A stretch of 64,000 nt of DNA from the NCBI GenBank assembly GCA_030432295.1, contig JAUIHI010000002.1, forward strand, positions 124,001 through 188,000. Reading direction: 5' to 3'. Positions 14,454-17,763 of this stretch are shown one piece after another (the first letter of the stretch is position 1; each line of letters opens with the position of its first letter). A model generated the notes under the pieces. It did not search any database, had not been told where the DNA came from, and was given only the letters and a program-made list of their open reading frames with translations. The stretch is from Anaerolineae bacterium (GTDB lineage Bacteria; Chloroflexota; Anaerolineae; Caldilineales; Caldilineaceae). Made by a program: the position numbers and the translations under genes.

Positions 14454-15689
14454 TCAGGCAGAAACGATACGCAGGTAGCGACGTTTACCCACCTGCAAAA
14501 CCTGATCCTTGCCCGCTGTATGGGCTATCTCTTCTCCGGCATCCTCCACTGTCTCGCCGTTGAGTCGGACACCCCCCTGCTGAATCAGCCGCCGCGCCTC
14601 GCTGTTGCTGCGGGTCAACCCGGCTTCATTCATCAGATCGAGCAGCCCGATGGCCCCGGCGATGGCGTGCTCCGGCGCGTCGCTGGGAATGTCCCCCTCG
14701 AACATCCGTCGGGCATCCTCGGCGGCCTGGTTTGCGGCTTCGTCCCCGTGGAAGATGCTGACAATCTCCCAGGCCAGTTGGGCTTTGGCCTCCTGGGGAT
14801 TCAAGCGGCCCGCTTCGATCTCCGCCAACATTTCGTCGATCTTTGTTTGGCTCCAGCGGGTAACCAACTCAGCGAAGTTGCGGAAGGTGTGGTCGGCCAA
14901 GCTCAGTACTTTTGTGAAGATCACACCCGGCGCTTCGTGGATGCCGATGGAATTGCCGGTGGACTTGCTCATGCGCAATGTACCATCGGTCCCCACCAGA
15001 ATCGGGAAGGTCAGCACAACCTGGGGTTCTGTGCCTTTGGCTTCCATCAGTTTGCGCCCGGCCATCAGATTGAAGAGCTGATCCGTGCCGCCGATCTGCA
15101 CGTCCGTATTGAGCGCGACCGCGTCGTAGCCCTGCATCAGCGCGTAGAAAAACTCGTGCAGCCAGATGGGATCGCCTTTGGCATGGCGCTTGCTGAAGTT
15201 GTCCCTCGTCAGAAATTGCTGGACAGTAAAGTTGCTGGCCAGATCGATCACATCGCCAAAGCTCAGTTCGCCCAGCCATTTGTGGTTGTATTCCACAAGC
15301 GTCTTCTGCCGGTCCAAGACCTGGAAAGCCTGCTCGGTGAATGTGCGGGCATTTTCCATGGCCGCGTCCAGTGTCTGCTGCTGGCGGGCACTCTCTTTGT
15401 CGCTGGGGTCGCCGATTGTGCCGGTGAATGTGCCGATCAGAAAGACGACTTCGTGGCCCAATTCCTGAAACTGGCGCAGTTTGCGCAGGGGCACGGTGTG
15501 GCCCAGGTGCAGGTCCGAGGAAGTGGGGTCGAAGCCGCAGTAGACCCGCAGGGGCTTGCCGGTGGCGCTGGCCTTTTCCAGCCGGGCACGCAGTTCCTTT
15601 TCCATATTGGTGCGGGTCAGGTCGTCGCCAAAATCGACACCCCGCATGAGGATGCTCATCTGTTCATCGACAGGAGGGAAAGTTGTCAT
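14454..15689 (-). CDS. tyrS: Tyrosyl-tRNA synthetase
   Basis: Protein of 411 residues. It charges tRNA-Tyr with tyrosine using ATP. The class I signatures are present: HLGH (residues 61-64) and RMSKS (239-243), with tyrosine-pocket elements [13 protein letters not shown] and [11 protein letters not shown]-terminal S4 RNA-binding domain (about 345-411, [15 protein letters not shown]) matches the longer bacterial TyrRS form. ATG 15689 is chosen over an ATG 7 codons upstream because AGGAAC precedes it at usable spacing and the upstream one has no ribosome-binding site. Upstream lie a Tyr-rich leader frame and an intrinsic terminator, so expression is probably set by attenuation. It ends at a strong terminator. 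Confidence 0.95.
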
Positions 15690-15750: not shown

Positions 15751-15783
15751 AAAATAAAAACGCGTGGCTGTGCGCCACGCGTT
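15751..15783 (-). terminator. Attenuator terminator in the tyrS leader
   Basis: Perfect 10-bp stem AACGCGTGGC (15759-15768) / GCCACGCGTT (15774-15783). On the minus strand it is followed by TTTTTATTTT, a textbook intrinsic terminator. It lies between the tyrS promoter and the tyrS start codon, so it must be bypassed for tyrS to be expressed. Confidence 0.85.
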
Positions 15784-15806
15784 CGGTACGGGAGAAGGCT
15801 GTCTGC

Positions 15807-15911
15807 TTAGATGGAGACAGAATGAACGGCGTGCGCGGACAGAGCGGGGCGTCTTGCGCCCCTCGGATACGAGTAGCCATATTCGCTGCACACAACCGGT
15901 TGCCTTTTCAT
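15807..15911 (-). CDS. Tyr-rich leader peptide of tyrS (leaderless start)
   Basis: Frame of 34 codons beginning MKRQPVV. The run EYGYSY at residues 10-15 puts three Tyr codons (TAT, TAC, TAT) in five positions, directly ahead of a GGGGCG/CGCCCC hairpin. The ATG (15909-15911) lies exactly 7 nt downstream of the -10 box, so its A is the predicted transcription start. The leader would be translated from a leaderless mRNA. The TAA lies in the loop of a CTGTCT/AGACAG stem, and the terminator hairpin follows. This is the layout expected for amino-acid-codon attenuation. The peptide itself probably has no function. Evidence is from sequence layout only. Confidence 0.7.
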   Translation of the reverse strand: MKRQPVVCSEYGYSYPRGARRPALSAHAVHSVSI

Positions 15912-15917
15912 GGGTAG

Positions 15918-15946
15918 ACTATAGCACGCCCCTCGCCGAAGGTCAA
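15918..15946 (-). promoter_or_regulatory. tyrS operon promoter
   Basis: On the minus strand TTGACC (15941-15946), a 17-bp spacer and TATAGT (15918-15923). It lies after the end of the dehydratase gene (15989), so the tyrS leader has its own promoter. Predicted start is at 15911. Confidence 0.8.
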
Positions 15947-15988
15947 AAAGAAGTTGGACTTTTCGGAAAAAGTCGAACTTCTCTCCGA

Positions 15989-17722
15989 CTAAAATTTCGG
16001 CTGATGCTCGGCGACCGCGGGGTCTGCACCCAGCAAAAAGCCGAAGTCCATCCCATCCGGGGCCTGTAGAATCGAATCGAGAAAGAGCTTGCCATAGCCC
16101 CGGCTGTAGTGGGGCGCTGGAGGCTGCCATTCGGCCCGACGTCGGTCCAGTTCGTCGTCGCTGACGTGCAGATGCAGGCGACGGTTTGCCAGGTCCAGCT
16201 CAATCTCGTCCCCGTCCCGCACCAGCGCCAGGGGACCTCCGATGGCCGACTCCGGCGCGACGTGGAGGACAATCGTCCCGTAGGCCGTGCCGCTCATGCG
16301 GGCGTCGGAGATGCGCAGCATATCCCGCACCCCCTGCTTGAGCAGTTTGGTGGGGATGGGCAGATTGCCCACCTCCGGCATCCCCGGCCCGCCGATAGGA
16401 CCGGCATTTTGCAGCACCAGCACGTCGTCGGGGGTCACGTCCAGGTCGGGATCGCCGTAACGGGCCTGCAAATCCGGGATGCTGGTGAAGACGACGGCCC
16501 GCCCCCGGTGTTGAAGCAGCCGGGGCGTGGCCGCCGAATGTTTGATGACTGCACCGTCCGGGGCCAGATTGCCCCGCACAATTGACAGCCCGCCCTGACT
16601 GTCCAGGGGATTGTCCAATGTACGGATGACATCCGGGTTGTGGATTTCCGCCTCCGCCACATTCTCGGCCAGCGTGCGCCCGGTGATAGTGAGCGCGTCG
16701 CCGTGGAGCAGTGGCAGCAGTTGCTTCAACACTGCCGGGATGCCCCCCGCGTAGAAAAGGTCCTCCATTTGATATTTGCCGCTAGGCCGCAGGTTAGCAA
16801 TCATCGGCGTGCGGCGACTGATCTCGTCGAAGAGGTCCAGGGGCAAGGGAATGCCCAGGCGACCGGCGAGGGCAGGCAGATGGACAACCGCATTTGTGCT
16901 GCCGCCGATGGCGCAGAGCAGGGTGATGGCGTTTTCCAGGGCTTCCCGTGTCAGAATGCGGGAGGGTCGCAGCCCTTCGGCCACCATCCCCACAATACGC
17001 CGCCCACTTTGCTCGGCCAGACGCATCCGCCGGGAATCGACCGCGGGAATCGCGCCGTTGCCGGGCAGGGCCATGCCCAGGGCTTCGGTCATGGAATTCA
17101 TTGTGGAGGCTGTGCCCATCACCATACAGTGGCCGTGGCTGCGCACCAGATTGTCCTCCACTTCGGCATACTGGCCGTCGGTCAGCTTGCCCGCCCGGAA
17201 TTCGTCGCTGAGCCGCCGACAGTCGGTGCAGGCTCCCAACATTTGCCCCCGCCAGTTGCCGTTGAGCATCGGCCCGCCGGAGACGAGCAGACTGGGCAGG
17301 TCCGCGCTGGCCGCACCCATTAGCGCAGCCGGGGTGGTCTTATCGCAGCCGGTGAGCAGCACAACCCCGTCGATGGGGTTGCCCCGGATCATCTCCTCCG
17401 TGTCCATTGCGGCCAGATTGCGCCAGAGCATCGACGACGGAGTCAGGTAAATCTCACCTAAACTGATCGTCGGAAATTCGAGAGGAAAACCGCCCGCCTG
17501 CCAGACCCCCCGCTTGACCGCTTCGACCAGTTGGGGGAAGTGGGCGTGGCAGTTGTTGAGTTCGCTGAAAGTGTTGCAGATGCCGATGACCGGCTTGCGC
17601 ATATCCTCCTCGTCGAAGCCCATCGACTTCGTGAAGGTGCGGTGGATCAGCCCGGCGGTAAAATTGTCTTGAAAGAAAGTAGTGCTGCGGTTCTTTTCGT
17701 CGCTGCCAGATGCAATAGTCAT
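15989..17722 (-). CDS. IlvD/Edd-family dehydratase, probably sugar-acid type
   Basis: Protein of 577 residues. The family uses an Fe-S cluster to dehydrate 2,3-dihydroxy acids or aldonic acids. Cluster-region cysteines are visible in GICNTFSELNNCH, LLTGCDKTTPA and GACTDCRR. The opening TTFFQDNFTAGLIHRTFTKS and the segment SMLWRNLAAMDTEEMIRGNP fit the aldonate/L-arabinonate dehydratase branch better than classical IlvD. The product is therefore more likely a sugar-acid dehydratase than dihydroxy-acid dehydratase, though either is possible. ATG 17722 is chosen over the longer frame because AGGGA precedes it and the conserved region starts there. A strong promoter lies immediately upstream. No sugar-acid pathway partners are adjacent. 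Confidence 0.85.
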   Translation of the reverse strand: MTIASGSDEKNRSTTFFQDNFTAGLIHRTFTKSMGFDEEDMRKPVIGICNTFSELNNCHAHFPQLVEAVKRGVWQAGGFPLEFPTISLGEIYLTPSSMLWRNLAAMDTEEMIRGNPIDGVVLLTGCDKTTPAALMGAASADLPSLLVSGGPMLNGNWRGQMLGACTDCRRLSDEFRAGKLTDGQYAEVEDNLVRSHGHCMVMGTASTMNSMTEALGMALPGNGAIPAVDSRRMRLAEQSGRRIVGMVAEGLRPSRILTREALENAITLLCAIGGSTNAVVHLPALAGRLGIPLPLDLFDEISRRTPMIANLRPSGKYQMEDLFYAGGIPAVLKQLLPLLHGDALTITGRTLAENVAEAEIHNPDVIRTLDNPLDSQGGLSIVRGNLAPDGAVIKHSAATPRLLQHRGRAVVFTSIPDLQARYGDPDLDVTPDDVLVLQNAGPIGGPGMPEVGNLPIPTKLLKQGVRDMLRISDARMSGTAYGTIVLHVAPESAIGGPLALVRDGDEIELDLANRRLHLHVSDDELDRRRAEWQPPAPHYSRGYGKLFLDSILQAPDGMDFGFLLGADPAVAEHQPKF

Positions 17723-17763
17723 CGCTATGTCCCTGAAAATGGAGGGGGAATGGATACAGCCAA

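Follow-up and report, generated by a model that had tools for sequence, protein, structure and literature searches.

A putative tyrosine-sensing leader-peptide attenuator of tyrS in Anaerolineae, with an apparently leaderless leader mRNA

The stretch of DNA analyzed here (the window, 64,000 nucleotides) belongs to a 6.7-Mb Caldilineaceae-type genome of the class Anaerolineae, phylum Chloroflexota. On its minus strand, a dihydroxy-acid dehydratase-family gene is followed by the leader element described below and then by tyrS (Table 1). The tyrS product scores 348.8 bits against TIGR00234 (cutoff, 113.8), and a homologue search gave Litorilinea aerophila as the nearest named relative (TyrS 91% identical), followed by other Caldilineaceae. 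The gene has a weak Shine-Dalgarno (SD) sequence, AGGA, at 15700-15697 (minus strand). A 34-nt hairpin with a T-run lies between the dehydratase gene and the tyrS promoter, overlapping the -35 box; it was missed by the consensus terminator scan of the region. It is probably the terminator of the dehydratase gene, insulating the leader from read-through, and its position ahead of the -35 box leads us to expect that tyrS has its own transcript.

Table 1. Features of the tyrS locus (window coordinates)
Feature	Position	Strand	Basis or remark
Dihydroxy-acid dehydratase-family gene	15989-17731	-	Upstream of the leader element
Terminator-like hairpin GAAGTTcGACTTTTtccgAAAAGTCcAACTTC + T-run, 3' of the dehydratase gene	15945-15982	-	-13.0 kcal/mol
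Sigma-70-type promoter, TG before the -10	15918-15946	-	Direct reading and scan
Leader peptide ORF MKRQPVVCSEYGYSYPRGARRPALSAHAVHSVSI, then stop	15807-15911	-	ATG at the expected transcription start
Region 1, just 5' of the Tyr codons; would pair with region 2 if ribosome-free	15883-15898	-	Minimum-energy folds
Regulatory Tyr codons TAT GGC TAC TCG TAT, proposed stalling site	15867-15881	-	Cluster conserved in relatives
P1 hairpin GGGGCG-caaga-CGCCCC, immediately 3' of the Tyr codons	15846-15862	-	Proposed pause/spacer hairpin
Region 2 (GCGCACGCCGTTC); would pair with the terminator 5' arm as antiterminator	15824-15836	-	Pairing computation and positional constancy
P2 hairpin CTGTCT/AGACAG, leader stop codon in loop	15799-15820	-	Folding; recurs in relatives
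Intrinsic terminator, stem GAACGCGTGGC/GCCACGCGTTT + U-tract	15751-15784	-	Terminator scan
tyrS, tyrosine--tRNA ligase, regulated gene	14454-15689 (ATG 15689)	-	TIGR00234

The promoter consists of a -35 box TTGACC (15946-15941) and a -10 box TATAGT (15923-15918) separated by a 17-nt spacer. It was the single promoter-like site found in a scan of the region, with 10 of 12 consensus matches, where shuffled sequences gave a mean of 0.1 sites. Six nucleotides (CTACCC) separate the -10 box from the leader ATG (15911-15909), whose A is therefore the seventh base after the hexamer; from this spacing, the expected +1 is 15911. There is no SD sequence before the leader ATG (GCTATAGTCTACCC), and the -10 box stands at the distance from the start codon at which it would stand from a transcription start. 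In Streptomyces lividans, 88.7% of the spacers between -10 box and transcription start are 5 to 7 nt long (PMC8079986), and leaderless genes had earlier been predicted at 4.7% in Chloroflexi (PMC3160421). Among strict promoters followed by an ATG in the present genome, the spacing from -10 box to ATG peaks at 6 to 7 nt (19/58), and among the loci checked from these 58 matches, a run of cognate codons was found only at tyrS. Because of the spacing and the lack of an SD sequence, the leader mRNA is apparently leaderless, with ribosomes loading at its 5' end. A transcription start farther upstream is less likely because of the terminator-like hairpin that follows the dehydratase gene.

The leader ORF comprises 34 codons and a TAA stop, with Tyr at codons 11, 13, and 15 inside the sequence EYGYSY (residues 10 to 15), which places a short ORF with clustered cognate codons directly ahead of a synthetase gene. 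An intrinsic terminator separates it from tyrS: its stem (15784-15758) is a perfect 11-bp helix, followed by TTATTTT, 69 nt before tyrS. An earlier note on this DNA, made from the sequence alone, had described the promoter with its ATG at the expected +1, the 34-codon frame, the GGGGCG/CGCCCC hairpin, the stop codon inside a CTGTCT/AGACAG stem, and the perfect terminator. Direct reading and the scans found all of these as it had described them.

The leader as a whole folds more stably than its shuffled versions (z = -2.58). The note had also proposed that late leader codons could pair with the 5' arm of the terminator, and computation recovered this pairing: region 2 and the terminator arm form ~12 pairs with one bulge at -19.1 kcal/mol, a value equaled by 2% of shuffles. 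Across leaders, the comparison with shuffles gave Fisher P values of 0.003 for the type A leaders (defined below) and 3e-5 for types A, B, and E together, values that ignore the relatedness of the sequences. In 11 of 12 Caldilineaceae leaders, the midpoint of the antiterminator segment falls 14 to 21 nt before the stop codon, which means that a ribosome terminating there would cover it. The SD of this position was 3.5 nt, compared with 20 nt in shuffles, and none of 500 shuffles was as tight (SD here being the standard deviation). In four leaders taken singly (L033, L047, L054, and L060), the antiterminator did not differ significantly from shuffles. A mutually exclusive antiterminator whose partner a ribosome could cover or free is thus found for the window and for the type A group, and is weak in some single leaders.

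We also modeled the terminator arm of the window before its 3' partner has been made. Its probability of pairing with upstream sequence was 0.80 when a ribosome occupied the Tyr codons and 0.35 when one stood at the stop codon; without a ribosome, it was 0.45. In three relatives (L042, L007, and L060), the ribosome-at-stop model did not lower this pairing. At equilibrium, the terminator of the window wins in all ribosome states and no switch is visible; the switch must therefore be kinetic, relying on the order of events during transcription.

To place these features among relatives, we compared 125 distinct tyrS upstream regions from the class Anaerolineae. In about 40 of them, tyrS is preceded by a short ORF containing clustered Tyr codons, a number that includes SD-led leaders and two whose promoter is not clear. 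A screen for the leaderless arrangement (a TATAAT-like box 5 to 9 nt before an ORF of 8 to 50 codons containing YY or YxY) was positive in 26/125 regions; dinucleotide shuffles gave a mean of 0.13 and a maximum of 1. Twenty-one regions have a short ORF at a spacing of 6 to 7 nt, and 20 of these show the Tyr pattern; the next amino acid was Gly with 12, largely owing to the GGGG hairpin. Nineteen loci have a -10 box and ATG at this spacing before TAYNNNTAY; the Tyr codons are in frame 0 in 18 of them (exclusively so in 16), all free of stop codons. The leaders use 47 TAT and 37 TAC codons, and the codons between them vary. Since codon choice and intervening codons vary while the frame is kept, it is the decoding of Tyr that is conserved.

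The earlier note had called for a comparison of this kind, and the Tyr codons proved to be conserved down to ~50% TyrS identity. So did the start: leaders of unrelated sequence share the layout of TATNAT, 6 to 7 nt, and ATG or GTG, which places the start codon at the expected +1. Nearly all homologous leaders have an intrinsic terminator 3' of the leader ORF. Grouped by eye, the leaders fall into types A (Caldilineaceae, including the leader of the window), B (YSYSGGDYAP), C (SD-led, Y[IT]YxxGL), D (very short, GYYYSCP), E (YIYPRGVDRP and similar), and F (YVYGYARV and similar). P1 is found in types A, B, and E. P2 recurs with altered sequence in most Caldilineaceae leaders and is clear in most of type A, and it is not clear in types B and E. 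The motif TAYTCGTAY-GGGGSG-SGCCCC occurs at 12 sites in 198 genomes, 11 of them ahead of tyrS (in one case as the head of an operon in which a VOC-family gene precedes tyrS) and 1 at a contig end; the reversed motif gave no sites in the same genomes.

This comparative evidence, namely the Tyr codons, their frame, the terminator, and the positioned antiterminator, supports the reading advanced by the earlier note. The element is, with high probability, a ribosome-mediated transcription attenuator that senses the charging of Tyr-tRNA and controls tyrS. This assignment draws on the anatomy of the element, its conservation, the reading frame and specificity of the codons, and the constant position of the alternative pairing. 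The first transcribed base would be the A of the leader start codon, yielding a leaderless nascent RNA onto whose 5' end a ribosome loads. With ample Tyr-tRNA, the ribosome would reach the stop codon, open P2, and cover region 2, so that the terminator would form and tyrS would be off. With Tyr-tRNA scarce, it would stall at Tyr codon 11, 13, or 15 and cover region 1; region 2 would then bridge P2 to pair with the 5' arm of the terminator, and RNA polymerase would continue into tyrS. The proposed switch matches classical attenuation, and we infer the stalling, the order of events, the direction of regulation, and the exact +1.

One competitor is direct tRNA binding, by a T-box or by a miniature riboswitch, with UAC or UAU as specifier and a UGG in the terminator arm binding the tRNA 3' end. 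Firmicutes control tyrS by T-boxes, which are abundant in the class Anaerolineae as well, and the terminator arm does contain TGGC. The genome itself has six T-box matches (L111 to L116), before an M20-family hydrolase gene, trpE, alaX, pheS, serS, and valS. None of these lies at tyrS, where RF00230 had no match in the window and where the combination of a Stem I with specifier and the conserved T-box sequence is absent. A T-box core in place of conserved Tyr codons was one of two findings that the earlier note had set against its own reading, the other being a transcription start well upstream; neither was encountered. Twelve relatives without the leader likewise showed no T-box ahead of tyrS, the single match (L084) being on the other strand. 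A T-box at tyrS was rejected on these grounds. Nor would a T-box require three spaced Tyr codons in frame with a start codon, TGG is missing from the terminator arms of leaders L059, L065, L089, and L090, and UGGC is mismatched to the A73 discriminator expected of tRNA-Tyr. We therefore consider tRNA binding of this kind very improbable. Still less credence is due to a constitutive partial terminator, or the end of the dehydratase transcript, with a Tyr ORF arising by chance. The element does lie between two co-oriented genes; however, the dehydratase gene has its own terminator-like hairpin, and a chance ORF was rejected by the shuffles, the codon specificity, the frame, and the genome-wide motif search.

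Alternatively, the peptide itself could act, as an arrest peptide or small functional peptide, rather than the decoding of its Tyr codons. In its favor, the leaders of types A, B, and E keep a fairly conserved core, YSYxxGGxxP. Across types, however, only the Tyr pattern is common (YSYSGGDYAP, YIYASGL, GYYYSCP, and YVYGYARV), the remaining peptide sequence follows the RNA hairpins, and the regulated enzyme is itself the one that uses Tyr, all of which makes an acting peptide improbable. A somewhat better, although still unlikely, prospect is an attenuator whose mRNA starts upstream and whose leader is translated conventionally. Six relatives have SD-led Tyr leaders with GAGG before the ATG (L059, L065, L068, L150, L154, and L162), so the mode of initiation is changeable. 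In the window, by contrast, the ATG has no SD sequence and the -10 box is exactly placed, the same layout recurs in many leaders of unrelated sequence and fits the genome-wide spacing peak, and a terminator-like hairpin lies just upstream.

Leader-peptide control as such is classical. The E. coli pheST attenuator, of the pheL/trpL type, shares with the attenuator proposed here a cognate-codon leader, exclusive structures, an intrinsic terminator, and a synthetase target; its leader contains Phe codons and is SD-led, and pheS of the Chloroflexota genome is under T-box control instead. The Bacillus subtilis tyrS T-box has the same gene, signal (uncharged tRNA-Tyr), and terminator/antiterminator output, but binds tRNA directly without translation, and no T-box is present at tyrS here. 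A survey of Actinobacteria assigned tyrosine to T-boxes. Closer in form are the Streptomyces synthetase leaders: cognate-codon attenuators were predicted for trpS and leuS (PMC1262725), and RNA-seq in S. lividans identified leader peptides on leaderless mRNAs ahead of leuS, trpS, and thrS, with no mention of tyrS (PMC8079986). In leuS, trpS, thrS, and also alaS, a short cognate-codon ORF likewise precedes the synthetase gene, and leuL2 is followed by a hairpin and U-tract; leuS, trpS, and thrS are leaderless by mapped transcription start, compared with spacing here (PMC8079986). They concern other amino acids and genes, offer no Tyr or tyrS case, belong to another phylum, and are unrelated in sequence. 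The Corynebacterium glutamicum AroR leader also has an aromatic codon cluster that includes Tyr (Phe-Tyr-Phe); as Neshat 2014 is summarized in PMC11802643, it controls DAHP synthase, not tyrS, and responds to Phe, and Tyr availability is reported there to be without effect.

We found no Tyr leader for tyrS in the open-access literature, to which the search was largely confined. The description of the element as unusual, made in the earlier note, therefore holds for tyrS as the regulated gene, for Tyr as the sensed codon, and for the phylum, none of which we found described, but not for leaderless attenuation of a synthetase gene, which is known from Streptomyces (PMC8079986 and PMC1262725). 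What is new is tyrS as target, Tyr as amino acid, and Chloroflexota as phylum. It seems likely that this is an undescribed Tyr-sensing attenuator of tyrS, widespread in Anaerolineae and mostly leaderless, in genomes where pheS, serS, valS, and trpE have T-boxes, and that evolution has altered both the RNA architecture and the mode of initiation, leaderless or SD-led, but kept the Tyr sensor. If so, tyrS joins the synthetase genes under leader-peptide attenuation, and leaderless attenuators extend from Actinobacteria to Chloroflexota. One genome would control pheS by T-box and tyrS by leader peptide, the reverse of the textbook assignment, and relatives differing in initiation mode would offer a way to test the coupling between leaderless translation and transcription.

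The element is absent from about two-thirds of Anaerolineae tyrS regions, including those of some Caldilineaceae (L037 to L041 and L043 to L045). Of the leaders present, L031 has no recognizable -10 box and that of L032 is weak. Two regions upstream of tyrS (L049 and L083) keep the promoter and a ACGCGTGG/CCACGCGT hairpin with no Tyr ORF, and are possibly decayed attenuators. Seven SD-led Tyr leaders ending in YxYxxGL and a stop (L059, L065, L068, L027, L150, L154, and L162) are built differently around the same sensor: their final codons (AGCGGATTGTAGC) can pair with a segment of the GCAATCCGCT type farther downstream. In one genome (L227, 1350-2800), a GTG-start Tyr leader in leaderless position heads a VOC-family dioxygenase-like gene and then tyrS. 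In another (L238), a Tyr leader and terminator lie at a contig end (G018:C54), with tyrS of the same genome on another contig.

Outside the class, 40 tyrS regions from other Chloroflexota contained no convincing leaderless Tyr leader, and the element therefore looks largely specific to Anaerolineae. No Rfam match was found in the 20 of these regions that were tested. The scan of the 40 did yield two weak candidates (L202 and L218) and one SD-led candidate (L203), an ORF MRGHAPLTHNRATHRVRQYIYLWRARGWGAIS ~240 nt before tyrS, which is possibly an independent Tyr leader.
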